From NCBI RefSeq assembly GCF_001433855.1, contig NZ_AZCP01000003.1, forward strand, positions 29,719 through 93,718: 64,000 nt of DNA, in the 5' to 3' direction. This document shows, one piece after another, positions 32,541-38,103 of this stretch. This stretch comes from Levilactobacillus brevis ATCC 14869 = DSM 20054. GTDB taxonomy: Bacteria; Bacillota; Bacilli; Lactobacillales; Lactobacillaceae. The notes below the pieces were generated by a model. The model had not been told where the DNA came from. It saw nothing but the letters and a program-made list of their open reading frames with translations, and did no database searches. Position 1 is the stretch's first letter. Each line of letters starts with the position of its first letter. The position numbers were made by a program, and so were the translations under genes.

Positions 32541-32579
32541 AGTTCTCGTTGATATGGAAGACATACAACTTAATCACAT

Positions 32580-32652
32580 GGGCAGTTAGCTCAGCTGGCA
32601 GAGCAACGGACTCTTAATCCGTGGGTCCAGGGTTCGATCCCCTGACTGCCCA
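32580..32652 (+). tRNA. tRNA-Lys (anticodon CTT)
   Basis: A 73-nt cloverleaf: acceptor GGGCAGT/ACTGCCC, D stem GCTC/GAGC, anticodon loop CTCTTAA (anticodon CTT), T arm with GGTTCGATCC; no encoded CCA. A terminator follows. Its downstream sequence is duplicated (see repeat). Confidence 0.95.
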
Positions 32653-32879
32653 TCACTTACTAATCAGCTTTCACGAAGTCGACTTCGTGGTTGCTGATTT
32701 TTTTGTACCTTCAAGTATAAATATCCGTATCGCTTATGTTTATTCATCGACTATCAGCGACAACCGCACGGCCAGTTCAGACGTTAATTTTCTGAAATGG
32801 CCGTGTTTTAGCACGCTCCCGTTATTTTGTCTCCTAGACAGACCCACGCAAATTGTTTTAAGCTTAATATGTTTACATT
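32641..32879 (+). repeat. 239-bp direct repeat, copy 1 (tRNA 3' tail plus downstream region)
   Basis: Identical without gaps to 37865-38103 except for 8 substitutions. It begins in the last 12 bases of tRNA-Lys, includes the tRNA terminator, a CGGCCA...TGGCCG hairpin, and ends in the promoter-like sequence that in copy 2 precedes the metalloprotease gene. Confidence 0.95.
32662..32704 (+). terminator. Terminator of tRNA-Lys
   Basis: AATCAGC and inner CACGAAG/CTTCGTG stem followed by seven T. A second copy is at 37886-37928. Confidence 0.82.
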
Positions 32880-32951
32880 GGCAGTTAGCTCAGCTGGCAG
32901 AACAACGGACTCTTAATCCGTGGGTCCAGGGTTCGATCCCCTGACTGCCCA
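32879..32951 (+). tRNA. Degenerate second tRNA-Lys (CTT), possible pseudo-tRNA and attL
   Basis: Same 73-nt gene as 32580-32652 with two changes: the first base is T instead of G (mismatch with C72) and the D stem reads GAAC for GAGC (A:C mismatch). The anticodon and T arms are intact. Its 3' tail CCTGACTGCCCAT recurs at 37865-37877, so it marks the left end of the island. Confidence 0.7.
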
Positions 32952-33051
32952 TTGATCAACACCAGTAAGTGTCATTAAGGTTCATTTAACGGCGTTTTAA
33001 CAGCTTTTGTAAAAAACGACAACTCATTAAATATCAGCGAAGATCACTTCG

Positions 33052-33073
33052 ATGGTAGTCAAAATGGTAGTCA
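33052..33073 (+). repeat. Two ATGGTAGTCA direct repeats at the left end of the island
   Basis: ATGGTAGTCA occurs at 33052-33061 and 33064-33073 (12-bp period), and again in the same orientation at 37783-37792 near the other end. The layout resembles integrase arm-type sites. No integrase gene is present. Confidence 0.5.
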
Positions 33074-33264
33074 CTATCAAAAGAAAACCCGTTGTGTAAA
33101 CCACGTTTTATACGACTTATGTATAATCGAAAGAAGAAATTTGGGTATAAGTTACCTGAGTTTCTTTTTTTGTGTCTTAAAATCCCTCCAGCAAAGATGT
33201 ATTGAGACTTTTGCTTATTGTATACAATCTGGAACAAAATGATATTGAGGGGCCTTTAGAATAC

Positions 33265-33318
33265 AAATACCCTCAAGAGTAAAGTGCTGTGAATTACGCT
33301 TTACTCATGGGGGTATTT
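33265..33318 (-). terminator. Probable terminator after the P-type ATPase
   Basis: AAATACCC..GAGTAAAG/CTTTACTC..GGGGTATTT long imperfect stem, 22 bp after the ATPase stop; the T-run on the minus side is weak. Confidence 0.55.
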
Positions 33319-33339
33319 TACGTCGGGCACGCATAGGAA

Positions 33340-35613
33340 CTATTCTCTCGGATTTCTCTTACTGTAAAACCATACAAGCGCACAGTCCAAAAGTACACCT
33401 ACAACTAGTACTAAAATGATTAATTTTATAATCAACCGAATTGAAATAGCCGCGATGCCCAGCCCAAAGACAGACAAAACCAATGTTAGAAACAGGTTAA
33501 GCGCAATTGCCGTAACAACCCACTTACTAGGGCGACTTGACCAAAAGAACGATTTAGTGCGTGTCATCAAAATTGTTAACATGGCACTTGCAATCAAGAA
33601 AACGTACATCGCACTGCTTATTTGGCCCGCAGCTAATTCCGACTGATGTAACCAAGTTAACATCGCAATACCTGTCACTGTCCAACCAACCGTCAAAATA
33701 CCCGCAATGCTGCTAAGACGCCGAAAATTCCATTGTTCTGGCTTGTAGGAAATAGTTGTATTGTCGGTCCCCAGCACCAAAGTAACAAGATCATTTAAAA
33801 TAGCCACTAGTACCATCGCATTTAAGGACAATGGGATTTGCTTAAAAACTAAATAACCAAAAGTTAACATCAACGTTAGTTCGGCCGTTCGAGCTAATTT
33901 AGTAATGGTCCATGTCATCATACGTTGGTACACGCGGTGACCACTATCTAAAATTTGGGGAAAGGAAGATAAACCAGTTTTCATTAAAATAATCTTTGCC
34001 GATTTTTTAGCTAAATCAGCTGCATTTGCCACTGCTACACCGACTTCAGCCCTTTTTAGCGCTGGTGCATCATTGATGCCATCACCAGTCATCCCAACCA
34101 CATATCCATCAACCTGCAACTTCTCCACGATTGCAAGTTTATCTTCGGGCAAAACACCAGCAATGCCAGCGACTTTACTAAAGTCGGTCATCTTTTGAAA
34201 ATCTTCTGATGCAATGATATCGCCTTTTAGTCCGACTTCTCTAGCTACTTGCTGAGCAGTCACTGCGTTATCACCAGTTAACATCATGACACGGACTCCT
34301 CGACGCTGAATTTCCAAAATTGACGCTCGGCTATCGTTCCGCGGCGCATCGCGCAAAATAAAAATACCGATTAACTCATCATCATCCGTGACGGCCAATG
34401 AACGTCCAGTATTCAATTGTTTGCGCCATTTAGCACTCTCAATCGTATCTGCGTCAACTAATCTTTTGAGAGATCCTAAGCGAATTACATGTGATTTTTG
34501 GCTAGTATTTACTATCGCCTCGGAGTACCCCAGACTAGGGTCAAAGGGTTTAAAATCTAACGCGTTATACTGACCCATTTTTTCTGTGTACGATTGAACT
34601 GCGGTATCGACGACACTAGGTTGATGATAGTCAGTCGCTTGTCTAGCAAGGTATAAGACATCATAATCCGACAGTTGGCTTGTATTCAGAAAAGACACGA
34701 CCTTCGTTTGATTTTCCGTAATTGTTCCTGTCTTATCAACCAGCAAGATATTTAAGTTACCGGCTTCTTGAATACCCGTTAAGTTGCTCACTAGAATATC
34801 TTCGTCACTTAAAACTCGTGCTTCAACAGCGTTTGCAACAGAAAAACTTGATGGCATTGCTATGGGGATAGTAGCAATAAATAACATTCCTAAGAACGGC
34901 ACCATAGACAATGAGCTTTCGCCCCGAATAAACGAAGTTATTAAAATTACTACTGCTAATACTGTATCTAAAATTGCTAGATAACCAATAATTCTACTTA
35001 ATAGTTGCTGTAAATGTCCTGGAGCTGAAGAGGTTGTCGCCAAATTAACGGTTTTGCCTGAGCGACTTCTTGCACCGGTTGCAATTACTTCTGCCATAGA
35101 ATTACCCTTTAATATCTCAGTACCCGCATAGACGTTGTCTTTAACCGATTTTGTAACAGCCGTTGATTCACCTGTGATGCTACTTTCATCAACTTCAAGG
35201 CCACTATCCAACAATTGGGCGTCTGCAGGTATGAGATTGCCCCGGTGCAAATCTATAATATCTCCCACGACTAATGCCCTGCTTGGTATTGAAATCCATT
35301 TATCAGACCTAATCACACGGGATGTCAAACTTAACTGTTTGGAGAGCTTACCGAGAACTCGACTGGCACGCCCCTCCTGAACCGCACCATTTATAGCGGC
35401 AAATAGAAGCATGAGCACAATAAAGCCAGCTTGTATTGTCTTACCCAGCACTATCTCAATAATTAGCGCTACTTCTAGAATCCACGCGGATGGTTCCCAC
35501 AAACGACTCAGTACGGATTTGCCAAAATTAAAATCATGACTGGCAACTTCGTTTGGACCATCCTTTTTTAAACGCAACTCCGCCTGCTCATCTGTTAACC
35601 CCTTTAAAGTCAT
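33340..35613 (-). CDS. P-type (P3A-like) proton-efflux ATPase under a fluoride riboswitch
   Basis: A 757-residue ion pump. Actuator motif TGES at about residue 146, intramembrane PIAMP motif near 254, phosphorylation motif DKTGTIT at about 293, KPFDPS, MLTGDN near 450, TGDGINDAP near 507, and LNDLVTL in the helix-6 region, where plasma-membrane H+-ATPases carry their proton acceptor Asp. About ten membrane segments and no N-terminal metal-binding domain or C-terminal heavy-metal motif; it is closest to plant/fungal-type H+-ATPases. It would expel protons at the cost of ATP. A 12-nt gap separates AGGAGG from the ATG. Its leader (35641-35737) looks like a fluoride riboswitch. First-choice role: countering acidification by HF. 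Ion specificity is inferred. Confidence 0.87.
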   Translation of the reverse strand: MTLKGLTDEQAELRLKKDGPNEVASHDFNFGKSVLSRLWEPSAWILEVALIIEIVLGKTIQAGFIVLMLLFAAINGAVQEGRASRVLGKLSKQLSLTSRVIRSDKWISIPSRALVVGDIIDLHRGNLIPADAQLLDSGLEVDESSITGESTAVTKSVKDNVYAGTEILKGNSMAEVIATGARSRSGKTVNLATTSSAPGHLQQLLSRIIGYLAILDTVLAVVILITSFIRGESSLSMVPFLGMLFIATIPIAMPSSFSVANAVEARVLSDEDILVSNLTGIQEAGNLNILLVDKTGTITENQTKVVSFLNTSQLSDYDVLYLARQATDYHQPSVVDTAVQSYTEKMGQYNALDFKPFDPSLGYSEAIVNTSQKSHVIRLGSLKRLVDADTIESAKWRKQLNTGRSLAVTDDDELIGIFILRDAPRNDSRASILEIQRRGVRVMMLTGDNAVTAQQVAREVGLKGDIIASEDFQKMTDFSKVAGIAGVLPEDKLAIVEKLQVDGYVVGMTGDGINDAPALKRAEVGVAVANAADLAKKSAKIILMKTGLSSFPQILDSGHRVYQRMMTWTITKLARTAELTLMLTFGYLVFKQIPLSLNAMVLVAILNDLVTLVLGTDNTTISYKPEQWNFRRLSSIAGILTVGWTVTGIAMLTWLHQSELAAGQISSAMYVFLIASAMLTILMTRTKSFFWSSRPSKWVVTAIALNLFLTLVLSVFGLGIAAISIRLIIKLIILVLVVGVLLDCALVWFYSKRNPRE

Positions 35614-35640
35614 CGTTTCCCACTTCCTCCTATGAAAGAA

Positions 35641-35737
35641 AATAAAAAGACGCCTATTGTCCCGAGACTAACCCCAGAACAATAGACGTCATCAAATTTA
35701 AAAATTAATTACGGCGAACGTCATCGCCTATGTTATT
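35641..35737 (-). ncRNA. Fluoride riboswitch (crcB motif) with terminator, P-type ATPase leader
   Basis: Minus-strand GGCGATGACGTTCGCC (35713-35728) is the core hairpin of the crcB/fluoride motif. Its loop GACGT (35718-35722) can pair with ACGTC (35685-35689) in the downstream TGATGACGTCTATT segment, the fluoride pseudoknot. The same downstream strand is the 5' arm (35678-35690) of an intrinsic terminator whose 3' arm is 35649-35660, followed by TTTTTATT. Ligand binding should therefore block the terminator and turn the ATPase on. Promoter at 35744-35772. Confidence 0.85.
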
Positions 35738-35743
35738 AGACTT

Positions 35744-35772
35744 AGTTTACTTCATAAGTCTGTCGGTTGCAA
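35744..35772 (-). promoter_or_regulatory. Promoter of the P-type ATPase leader
   Basis: -35 TTGCAA (35767-35772), 17-bp spacer, -10 TAAACT (35744-35749) on the minus strand. Confidence 0.7.
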
Positions 35773-35809
35773 ACCAAAAAATTGCTCATTTGATCATTCT
35801 TGTTACCTC

Positions 35810-35838
35810 TTGCACTTTCAAAAAAATGGCAGTATAAT
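35810..35838 (+). promoter_or_regulatory. Promoter of the enolase leader
   Basis: -35 TTGCAC (35810-35815), 17-bp spacer, -10 TATAAT (35833-35838). Transcription should start near 35845. Confidence 0.8.
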
Positions 35839-35844
35839 GACTTC

Positions 35845-35941
35845 GAAACAACGGTGATGGTGTTCACCGAAAAAAACTATTCATTAGAATTGACGACACC
35901 TACCTCTATTTTAATTGGAGGTAGGTGTCGTCTTTTTTTTA
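35845..35941 (+). ncRNA. Fluoride riboswitch (crcB motif) with terminator, enolase leader
   Basis: GGTGATGGTGTTCACC (35853-35868) is a textbook crcB/fluoride hairpin. The loop GGTGT (35859-35863) is complementary to ACACC (35896-35900). That strand is also part of the 5' arm (35892-35906, GACGACACCTACCTC) of a 15-bp terminator whose 3' arm is 35918-35932, followed by eight T. Pseudoknot and terminator are mutually exclusive, giving an ON switch. It ends 17 bp before the enolase start. Confidence 0.9.
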
Positions 35942-35957
35942 GAAAGAAGTCCTATCT

Positions 35958-37241
35958 ATGTCAGTTTATATTGAAAAGGTTCACGCCAGAGAGGTCTACG
36001 ATTCTCGTGGCAATCCAACTGTTGAGGCGGATGTTATTTTATCTGATGGTACCCTTGGTCGAGCAGAAGTTCCATCTGGTGCTTCCACTGGCGAAAAAGA
36101 AGCTATTGAATTACGTGATGGTGGTACTCGCCTGCAGGGCAAAGGGGTTTTAAAGGCCGTCAACAATGTTAACACTGAAATTAACCAAGCCTTACATGGA
36201 TTAGACCCATTAAATCAACCACTAATTGATCAAACAATGATTGCGCTAGATGGAACCGACAATAAGGCCCGCTTGGGTGCCAATGCAATTCTGGGTGTAT
36301 CTATGGCAACTTGTCGCGCGGCAGCCAATTTCCAAAAAGTCCCACTGTACCGTTACTTAGGTGGGACTGACTTAGAACTCCCTCAATCTTTCCACAACGT
36401 TATTAACGGCGGTAAACATGCAGATTCAGGGATTGATACGCAAGAATTTTTGATTACTCCCGTTAAGCGTAATTCATTCCGTGATGGCATTGAGAAAATT
36501 GCCAACACCTATCACACGCTAAAGACTATTCTCAAAGAAAGAGGATATGATACCGGGTTAGGTGATGAAGGTGGATTCGCGCCTCATTTGGCTTCAACTG
36601 ACGATGCTATCAAAATCTTAATTGAAGCCATTAAAACAGCGGGGTATAAGCCGGGGTCAGAAATTGCGATTGCAATAGATCCTGCATCATCCGAATTCTA
36701 CAACACCGAAACCGGATATTATCAGTTTGAGGGCGGTCAAAAATCCCCCGATGAAATGATTCAGTACTATCAGAATTTGGTATCTGAGCATCCCGAAATC
36801 ATTTCAATTGAAGATCCTTTTAGTGAAGATGATTGGGAGAATTATGCTAAGTTCACTACTGCTATGGGAAATAAAATTCAGATAGTGGATGATGACATAG
36901 TCGTTACCAATCCAAAAATCATCCGTGAAGCGATCAAACAAAACGTTGGGAACGCGATTTTGATTAAACTCAATCAAATTGGGACAGTTACTGAAACGTT
37001 AGAGGCCATTAGACTCGCCAAGAAGAATAACTTTACTGTCATGATTTCCCACCGCTCCGGCGAAACTGGCGATACATTTATTTCTGACTTTGCAGTGGCG
37101 ACAAATGCCGGTCAAATCAAAACCGGCGCAATGGCGCGTTCTGAAAGAGTCGAAAAATACAATCAATTTCTTCGCATTGAAGAAGAGCTCGGAAAAGGCG
37201 CAAGACTAGCACACTTCCCAAACGACGTTGATTTTGATTAA
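35958..37241 (+). CDS. Divergent enolase under a fluoride riboswitch
   Basis: A 427-residue phosphopyruvate hydratase (2-phosphoglycerate to phosphoenolpyruvate). Catalytic elements present: SGASTG loop, GDEGGFAP glutamate, metal ligands in [15 protein letters not shown] and VDDDIV, catalytic lysine in IKLNQIG, SHRSGE, and the K in [11 protein letters not shown]. Several near-invariant positions differ: GGKHADSG in place of [22 protein letters not shown] in place of [18 protein letters not shown] in place of GAPARSER. It is therefore probably a second, specialised enolase, not the housekeeping copy (which is normally with the gap-pgk-tpi genes). Being placed behind a fluoride switch suggests a fluoride-tolerant replacement of the fluoride-sensitive enzyme. 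Weak ribosome site AGAAAGAAG. Confidence 0.93.
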
Positions 37242-37261
37242 TCAAGAAGGGTAAGAAGATT

Positions 37262-37540
37262 ATGGATAATCAGCCATTAAATAATTTTAGTGAATTACTA
37301 ATGATTGTCCCTCAGAAAAAGAATGGGAGCCAGGCTGAAATCGTGCAGAATATTATTCATTATTTAGAGAGCCACGATGTATTATGGTATGATGTTCAAT
37401 CATCTCAAAACGAACGTCATCACAAACATTCGGCCATCCGAATTCAGGCTCATATGCCAAACCAATCAGTCAACGAAACAATAAATGTCCTTTCCGCTTT
37501 CATCGATGTTTCTCAAATCATTGTTAGGCCATTGGGCTAG
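37262..37540 (+). CDS. Small protein, unknown function, fluoride-switch operon
   Basis: A 92-residue soluble protein 20 bp after the enolase, in the same transcript and followed by a terminator. It starts at the ATG at 37262 with GAAGGG upstream. The predicted order strand-helix-strand-strand-helix-strand (LLMIVPQ; AEIVQNIIHYLESH; WYDVQSS; AIRIQAHM; NETINVLSAFI; IIVRPLG) suggests a ferredoxin-like or PII-like fold. DUF190 proteins, which have such a fold, accompany CrcB channels in other bacteria, but I see no clear sequence match. Function unknown. Confidence 0.72.
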   Translation: MDNQPLNNFSELLMIVPQKKNGSQAEIVQNIIHYLESHDVLWYDVQSSQNERHHKHSAIRIQAHMPNQSVNETINVLSAFIDVSQIIVRPLG

Positions 37541-37545
37541 CCCTA

Positions 37546-37580
37546 AAGGAATCTTCTAATACAAGGAGATTCCTTTTTTA
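37546..37580 (+). terminator. Terminator of the enolase operon
   Basis: AAGGAATCT/AGATTCCTT stem (37546-37554, 37567-37575) and T-run 37574-37579. Confidence 0.82.
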
Positions 37581-37707
37581 TTTGGTAAGCATTTGTTTGT
37601 CTGGTAATAGACAGACAAATCTATTACATAAAAATTGTTGGTTTCACCGACGAAAAAATACAACCTAAAGAGTGTATTTCATTCGTCCAATTGCGAAAGC
37701 AATTGCT

Positions 37708-37750
37708 GGGTTTGGGTTTGGGTTTGGGTTTGGGTTTGGGTTTGGGTTTG
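37708..37750 (+). repeat. (GGGTTT)7 hexanucleotide tandem repeat
   Basis: Seven perfect GGGTTT units (37708-37749) plus one G, in non-coding DNA near the right end of the island, preceded by an AATTGC-GAAA-GCAATT hairpin (37690-37705). The run is G-rich enough for G-quadruplex formation. Confidence 0.95.
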
Positions 37751-37782
37751 ACCGTCGGCAGGACCCTCTCGGGAGAGTTCTA

Positions 37783-37792
37783 ATGGTAGTCA
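37783..37792 (+). repeat. Third ATGGTAGTCA copy, right end of the island
   Basis: Same orientation as the two copies at 33052-33073. Confidence 0.5.
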
Positions 37793-37864
37793 TTCGCAAA
37801 AATCGCAGAATTTTGGAGGTCTAAATGCCTATAAATAAGCCTTTCTCTAAAAAATGGATCTTTT

Positions 37865-38103
37865 CCTGACTGCCCATCACTTACTAATCAGCTTTCACGA
37901 AGTCGACTTCGTGGTTGCTGATTTTTTTGTGTCTTCAAGTATAAATATCCGTATCGCTTATGTTTATTCATCAATTAGCAGCGACAACCGCACGGCCAGT
38001 TCAGGCGTTAATTTTCTGAAATGGCCGTATTTTAGCACGCTCCCGCTATTTTGTCTCCTAGACAGACCCACGCAAATTGTTTTAAGCTTAATATGTTTAC
38101 ATT
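37865..38103 (+). repeat. 239-bp direct repeat, copy 2, beginning with the tRNA-Lys 3' tail (attR-like)
   Basis: Gap-free match (231 of 239) to 32641-32879. It begins with CCTGACTGCCCAT, the last bases of tRNA-Lys, with no tRNA body before it, as expected at the far end of an element that integrated into a tRNA gene. Its terminator copy is 37886-37928, and its end supplies the upstream region of the metalloprotease. Confidence 0.95.

Follow-up and report, generated by a model that had tools for sequence, protein, structure and literature searches.

Fluoride is the established ligand of the RNA family RF01734, the crcB motif, and enolase is known in general as a target of fluoride riboswitches, according to the available text of a review (PMC11139923). 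As described there, fluoride enters the cell as HF and burdens the proton gradient, Fluc export is passive and driven by the membrane potential, acidification of the cytoplasm is correlated with fluoride exposure, export needs the proton-motive force, and Na+/H+ antiporters are the usual pH partners; no word beginning with 'ATPase' was found in the text of this review. Among the closest described gene sets is the fluoride-induced operon of Enterobacter cloacae FRM, for which the available portion of PMC5533749 reports induction of the enolase (176.9-fold) and of an ATPase fragment (15.5-fold; orf05249, named 'divalent cation transporting ATPase'), as well as persisting growth at 1,000 mg/L fluoride without gpmA, crcB and the ATPase fragment. 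By the table coordinates of that source the ATPase ORF spans only 261 nt; the FRM ATPase is therefore probably truncated, and the deletion tests would say little on the pump. A fluoride riboswitch, a P-type ATPase and an enolase were not found together in the open-access papers searched, where a search for fluoride, riboswitch, P-type ATPase and crcB led, in the text available, to a copper ATPase, and where the available texts yielded no description of a P3A pump under a fluoride riboswitch. No priority is claimed for the ATPase as a target; the gene lists of the founding paper (Baker 2012) may name this ATPase.

The window analysed here is the whole stretch of 64,000 nucleotides of Levilactobacillus brevis ATCC 14869 = DSM 20054 (contig NZ_AZCP01000003.1, positions 29,719 to 93,718). 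Its intergenic stretch 35641-35941 is flanked by the genes for a P-type ATPase (minus strand) and an enolase (plus strand), a divergent pair proposed by the first-pass annotation and borne out by gene calls and family searches (Table 1). Taken as a whole, the locus is read as two fluoride riboswitches that would co-induce an enolase and a probable proton-exporting ATPase, a reading to which a probability of about 85% is given.

Table 1. Features of the divergent ATPase-enolase locus and of the surrounding island, in window positions
Feature	Position	Strand	Remarks
tRNA-Lys(CUU), left island edge	32579..32654	+	
239-nt direct repeat, left copy	32641..32879	+	
Second, altered tRNA-Lys copy	32878..32952	+	3' 13 nt (32940-32952) recur at 37865-37877
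Double ATGGTAGTCA repeat inside left edge	33052..33073	+	third copy near 37783; putatively integrase-arm-like
P-type ATPase, 757 aa, P3A (proton-pump) like	35613..33340	-	family scores, solved relatives, M4/M6 residues
Intrinsic terminator, ATPase leader	35690..35649	-	-26.7 kcal/mol; tail TTTTTATT; 5' arm contains pseudoknot strand GACGTC
Fluoride riboswitch aptamer, ATPase gene	35737..35676	-	RF01734 42.8 bits, E 1.7e-8, full length; P1 and pseudoknot conserved
Candidate sigma-70 promoter, ATPase	35744..35772	-	TTGCAA-17-TAAACT; weak match, inferred by eye
Candidate promoter, enolase	35810..35838	+	TTGCAC-17-TATAAT; inferred by eye
Fluoride riboswitch aptamer, enolase gene	35844..35909	+	RF01734 38.1 bits, E 5.5e-7, full length
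Intrinsic terminator, enolase leader	35892..35932	+	-30.9 kcal/mol; tail of eight T; 5' arm contains pseudoknot strand GACACC
Second enolase (Eno2 type), 427 aa	35958..37241	+	TIGR01060 609.5 bits; catalytic residues kept
92-aa ORF just 3' of enolase	37262..37540	+	no family; possibly co-transcribed
239-nt direct repeat, right copy, 97%	37865..38103	+	starts with tRNA 3' end

Two riboswitch leaders and their terminators

The whole window was searched with cmscan and exactly two RF01734 matches were found, both above the gathering score of 34 bits, and at E ≤ 0.001 these two were the only ones in the whole genome (2.47 Mb). The two crcB-type cores quoted by the first-pass annotation are present in the sequence, and the Rfam search that it had proposed places both leaders above gathering. 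The distance of 125 bp that it had given between its two hits holds from core to core, whereas the Rfam matches are separated by 106 nt. An alignment of 48 fluoride riboswitches (47 distinct rows) of the bacterial family, including both window leaders, was used to examine the fold, and in a family model built from these 48 the window leaders score 68.7 and 50.9 bits. P1 is paired in 99.5% of the cells of the 47 distinct rows and the six-pair pseudoknot in 99.6%, while a third helix is weaker, with 61.4% of cells paired. Changes on both sides were observed for three pseudoknot pairs and three P1 pairs, and the observed covariation score was reached by none of 500 shuffles; the number of further pair types does not exceed that of the shuffles, 185 of 500 reaching the observed value. 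Read by eye on the alignment, both window leaders retain all six pseudoknot pairs, so the complementarity between loop and 3' segment pointed out earlier is real and belongs to a covarying element. A chance match, previously considered very unlikely, is ruled out as the origin of the leaders by the Rfam scores, the covariation and the family-model scores; a single riboswitch read on both strands is ruled out by two separate leaders with separate terminators. At the level of sequence and predicted fold, both leaders are confirmed as ordinary members of the known fluoride (crcB-type) riboswitch class.

All six nucleotides of the pseudoknot strand fall inside the 5' arm of the terminator in both leaders, and by sequence and folding each leader thus carries a mutually exclusive expression platform. 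A hairpin of this kind follows 100 of 106 riboswitch hits in the family against 82 of 530 dinucleotide-shuffled controls, and the terminator overlaps the pseudoknot strand by at least 3 nt in 97 of 106 hits against 27 of 530 controls, the strand position being approximated in this count by a fixed distance from the hit end. The conserved, covarying pseudoknot and the overlapping terminators back the earlier claim of 'ligand on, terminator off' for both strands, and the predicted logic on each strand is fluoride on, terminator off, a transcriptional on-switch.

The enolase leader differs from most of the family in having TGACG in place of TGATG, a variant seen in four of the 48 rows, the window's included. 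Its lower score (38.1 bits) and its C at a usually conserved U would fit a decayed aptamer, with only the ATPase leader still switching and the enolase constitutive or off, but the other three TGACG rows sit upstream of HAD-crcB operons and the enolase leader has kept its terminator and every one of its six pseudoknot pairs, so decay of this leader is regarded as very improbable and switching of both leaders is preferred.

Each candidate promoter ends just 5' of its aptamer. Because a promoter consensus scan lists neither of them, and neither is a full consensus match, both are kept as candidates. An inverted repeat, AGACTTA...TAAGTCT, was also seen by eye around the candidate -10 of the ATPase (window 35738-35761) and is possibly an operator.

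The enolase and the ATPase

The window enolase lies above the curated cut-off of TIGR01060 (300 bits) and is 55% identical to the other enolase of the genome, on contig C7. Among the matches listed for the 301 genomes of the bacterial family, 69 places are at least 63% identical to the window enolase and are referred to as Eno2, the rest reaching at most 58%. Residues H154, E163, E204, D241, E285, D312, K337, H365, R366, S367 and K388, the catalytic and Mg2+ positions by homology, are conserved in all 63 Eno2 rows and all 21 Eno1 rows; Eno1 and Eno2 differ at 39 listed alignment positions, of which two are gaps and a few stand beside active-site residues. In 13 of the 301 family genomes the sole enolase match at E ≤ 1e-60, among the matches listed, is of the Eno2 type, and Eno2 is therefore probably a working enolase; a dead paralogue is ruled out by the kept catalytic residues together with this sole-enolase status. 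The 92-aa ORF 3' of the enolase showed no family match over a cut-off, and no relative was found by phmmer among the ORFs of other riboswitch loci. The other enolase of the genome is followed by an ORF and then by the genome's only CLC match (C7:124658-128464). This sole CLC match (C7:127445) carries GSGIP and GREGP, which we take to mark the chloride type, and a CLC-F exporter in this genome is thereby ruled out.

The best family of the ATPase is TIGR01647 (P3A proton-efflux) with 496.3 bits, against 209.4 bits for the Mg family and 190.3 bits for the Ca family. Because 496.3 bits is below the curated equivalog cut-off of TIGR01647 (615.5 bits), the protein is termed P3A-like and not a member of TIGR01647. 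Among proteins of solved structure it is closest to plasma-membrane ATPases, including Pma1 and AHA2, and the motifs DKTGT (293-297), TGES (147-150) and PIAMP (250-254) as well as D608 were located. Residues were counted over distinct ORFs of more than 650 aa and more than 500 bits (51) and one plasmid row, broken copies (G127, G290, G124) being excluded. The 11-residue M4 core follows the pattern P-[IV]-x-M-P and is free of acidic residues in all 52 rows, whereas the aligned Mg- and Ca-ATPases have Glu there. By these features the window ATPase looks like the P3A proton pumps.

The RNAs might be fluoride riboswitches and the ATPase still move a divalent cation (Mg2+, Ca2+ or Mn2+), correcting a metal imbalance caused by fluoride chelation, as the annotation of the homologous FRM fragment (PMC5533749) and the over-representation of divalent cation transporters with fluoride exporters, stated in the available text of PMC11139923, would suggest. 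The HMM scores, which put P3A over 280 bits ahead of the Mg and Ca families for both the window and the plasmid proteins, and the M4 core without an acidic residue argue against divalent-cation transport, which is considered unlikely, and proton export is retained as the probable activity.

Differential patterns were observed at the position aligned with AHA2 D684, which we take, in number and role, to be the M6 Asp. All 30 riboswitch-linked rows, among them the window row with its D608, have Asp here, as does the plasmid row; of the 21 rows without a riboswitch, 18 have Asn and three have Asp. About two changes between Asp and Asn are placed on a tree that has long branches and an unsure place for the window row, and the association is therefore suggestive and not statistically independent; a sign test of the D608/N608 split was not significant, the split being confounded by descent. 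Such a pump is a doubtful remedy for fluoride, since metal-fluoride complexes also inhibit P-type ATPases. At two loci without a riboswitch (L164, L169), an ORF that looks by eye like a regulator of the LysR type is divergent to the ATPase.

Recurrence, plasmid relatives and the island at tRNA-Lys

The riboswitch was detected at E ≤ 0.001 in 68 of the 301 family genomes and over the gathering score in 58. For the 106 hits listed with stricter filters (the window's two included, 24 of the 106 under gathering), the longest ORF with its start no more than about 450 nt away was taken as the first gene, giving enolase for 38, CrcB for 28, ATPase for 13, HAD hydrolase for 7, metallophosphatase for 3, other genes for 11 and none for 6. 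A few of these labels differ from the gene map, such as L096 and L098, which are MutS-like in the map and not in the first-gene table; the enolase count includes fragments, two of which were checked (L045, L063) and match Eno2 better than Eno1; and the labels HAD, metallophosphatase, MutS-like and EamA rest on one scanned example each. Seven genomes of one genus (L037-L039, L042-L044, L047) have a HAD hydrolase and then a crcB pair behind one riboswitch. A single locus with three fluoride riboswitches (L057 and L058) has enolase-ATPase on one side and, on the other, a crcB pair, a 189-aa protein without a Pfam match, and metallophosphatase-like and DUF190-like proteins.

At E ≤ 1e-150, 54 ATPase homologues were found in 51 of the 301 genomes, and a riboswitch hit lies upstream of 31 of them: within 600 nt for 13, in the order riboswitch-eno2-ATPase for 16, and within 3 kb on the same strand for two; 23 of these 31 linkages rest on a hit at the gathering score and eight on a weaker one. 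The 23 ATPases without a riboswitch at the search threshold comprise three that follow eno2, six divergent from eno2 within 10 kb and 14 without eno2 within 10 kb. For the 69 Eno2 places, a riboswitch hit within 600 nt was found in 37, and 32 are without one at the search threshold. When the family model was applied to 42 stretches (all 23 unlinked ATPases, the own crcB and Eno1 regions, and only part of the unlinked enolases), two further hits above 30 bits were obtained, one each upstream of an ATPase and an Eno2. The CrcB pair of the own genome is at another place, unlinked to the cassette, and no riboswitch was found in the stretch around it. A class-level search gave an ATPase match at E ≤ 1e-120 in four of 398 genomes; three of the four, the own genome being one, belong to this family.

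Ten divergent riboswitch pairs within 3 kb were listed, and an ATPase stands directly opposite an enolase only in the window's; in genome G020, crcB is opposite a broken enolase, the riboswitches being 115 nt apart. The earlier suggestion that the divergent pair makes one fluoride cassette gains backing from the recurrence of both genes downstream of fluoride riboswitches in the family, and on the genomic evidence the predicted regulon recurs in several layouts, of which the window's is one.

Among plasmids, 34 relatives of the ATPase were found at E ≤ 1e-100, each below 60% identity. One of the 34 was opened, an Enterobacter ludwigii plasmid (NZ_CP094842.1, L134), and its operon reads riboswitch-PPase-uspA-eno-gpmA-crcB-ATPase. 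Two more fluoride riboswitches precede genes for a CLC-type protein and for an antiporter on this arsenic-resistance plasmid, and the three riboswitches together lie around a large cluster of fluoride genes. Its ATPase is 39% identical to the window's over nearly the full length, and its best family is also P3A, with 600.3 bits just below the cut-off. Matches to the operon DNA were found in 52 plasmid records and in two of 5426 Escherichia coli genomes; they cover 80% or more of the operon in 29 of the records and in one of the two genomes. Relatives of the window enolase at E ≤ 1e-100 number 281 on plasmids; the best 11, at 72.2% identity, belong to Levilactobacillus, Pediococcus, Loigolactobacillus and Secundilactobacillus, several being from breweries. 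On the one plasmid opened among these, of Levilactobacillus brevis (NZ_CP031201.1, L221), a fluoride riboswitch (44.7 bits) precedes the enolase gene, and a crcB pair lies divergent to it; this crcB pair showed no riboswitch over gathering, and no ATPase is annotated there. No plasmid DNA matching the window's intergenic region was found.

The gene pairing could also be passive: assembly of the island would have joined two independent fluoride-controlled units, the ATPase and the enolase being functionally unconnected. Such joining would fit the crcB, metallophosphatase, DUF190-like and MutS-like genes that also combine with enolase or crcB in varied orders, and the L. brevis plasmid just described. 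Against it stand the 16 of 54 ATPases in the riboswitch-eno2-ATPase order, the three that follow and the six that diverge from eno2 without a riboswitch, and the enterobacterial operon that holds both genes; passive pairing is rated rather unlikely, and a shared role of ATPase and enolase in fluoride defence is the reading kept.

The cassette is bordered by walR with tRNA-Lys at one end and, at the other, by genes for a protease and an OppA-like protein; a T-box leader (100.7 bits; window 41536-41322, minus strand) was also noted upstream of a gene for an OppA-like substrate-binding protein. The cassette (32953-37864) is missing in 20 of 20 genus relatives compared by blastn at E ≤ 1e-6, in which the walR, tRNA-Lys and OppA sides align; of the 35 genomes of the genus, counting the own, 34 have walR. 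No riboswitch match was obtained in 13 of the 14 same-genus relatives of the family sample, the exception (G135) carrying a riboswitch-enolase-ATPase stretch on a 4.4-kb contig. The double ATGGTAGTCA repeat was found at one place in the genome. The tRNA-Lys gene is doubled also without the cassette in two of 11 loci scanned (L140, L141), and probably in L137 and L153, which speaks against too simple an account of the island. The two copies in L141 are about 1.7 kb apart at the same site and perhaps reflect another insertion. A perfect TGGGTT tandem run of 7.3 copies, telomere-like, was seen near the right island edge (window 37707-37750).

Two features of a tRNA island, a repeat of the tRNA 3' end and absence in relatives, were found, and an integrase of its own was not: the ORFs of at least 90 aa inside the cassette are the ATPase, the enolase, the 92-aa ORF and an ORF overlapping the enolase start. 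Judged by its edges and its distribution, the cassette is a 4.9-kb tRNA-Lys island, and since no integrase lies inside, it is taken to be non-autonomous or a decayed remnant.

Proposed mechanism and comparison with known systems

The two divergent leaders would be transcribed from the candidate promoters in the 106-nt spacer. With fluoride absent, each leader would form its terminator and transcription would halt before the gene; with fluoride in the cytoplasm, the Mg-fluoride-bound aptamer would keep the pseudoknot and occupy the 5' arm of the terminator, and the gene would be read, so that a single fluoride signal may switch on both genes. The second enolase could then compensate flux through the fluoride-inhibited glycolytic enzyme, while the P3A-like ATPase probably exports protons, which would offset acidification by HF and restore the membrane potential that drives fluoride out via the unlinked CrcB/Fluc pair. 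Put more broadly, and tentatively at somewhat less than even odds, the P3A-type pump may be a dedicated riboswitch-controlled fluoride-defence protein of this family (probably lactobacilli) and of enterobacterial plasmids, recharging the membrane potential and expelling HF-borne protons so that passive Fluc can drain fluoride, its riboswitch-less relatives having lost the M6 Asp in two clades while every riboswitch-linked row examined keeps it.

The RNAs themselves are ordinary; what is uncommon is that the divergent pair is so compact and that a P3A-like ATPase recurs as a gene of the fluoride regulon, which would make the ATPase a little-noticed member of the fluoride defence set. If true, a fluoride-induced primary proton pump would close the proton-gradient loop between Fluc and HF, and the reading of the operon ATPase as a divalent cation transporter would be corrected. 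The compact divergent pair may act as a naturally occurring fluoride sensor with two outputs. Its location in an island suggests a small chromosomal unit as the form in which these bacteria pass on fluoride resistance.

The window shares with the crcB motif (RF01734) the P1 stem, the pseudoknot, the conserved 3' strand and the transcriptional terminator platform, and differs from the motif in general in having two adjacent, divergent copies spaced by 106 nt and in one target, a P3A-like ATPase absent as such from the target lists found in the texts available. With the P3A H+-ATPases Pma1 and AHA2, the window protein shares Asp at the aligned M6 position and an M4 PIAMP that is AHA2's; at 757 aa it is shorter than the chains with which it was aligned (833 to 920 residues), and it scores below the TIGR01647 cut-off. 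The locus most like the window in layout, in another genus (G127:C4, L041), also has divergent riboswitch hits, 127 nt apart, with an enolase on one side and an ATPase ending the other, but two crcB genes stand there between riboswitch and ATPase, the ATPase is in two ORFs, and the hit on the crcB/ATPase side (29.2 bits) is under gathering, whereas both of the window's are above. As far as described in the available portion of PMC5533749, the FRM operon, like that of NZ_CP094842.1, shares with the window a riboswitch-controlled enolase, the plasmid's ATPase being in addition homologous to the window's; both are one polycistronic operon with PPase, uspA, gpmA and crcB, whereas the window is arranged as two divergent units without crcB.
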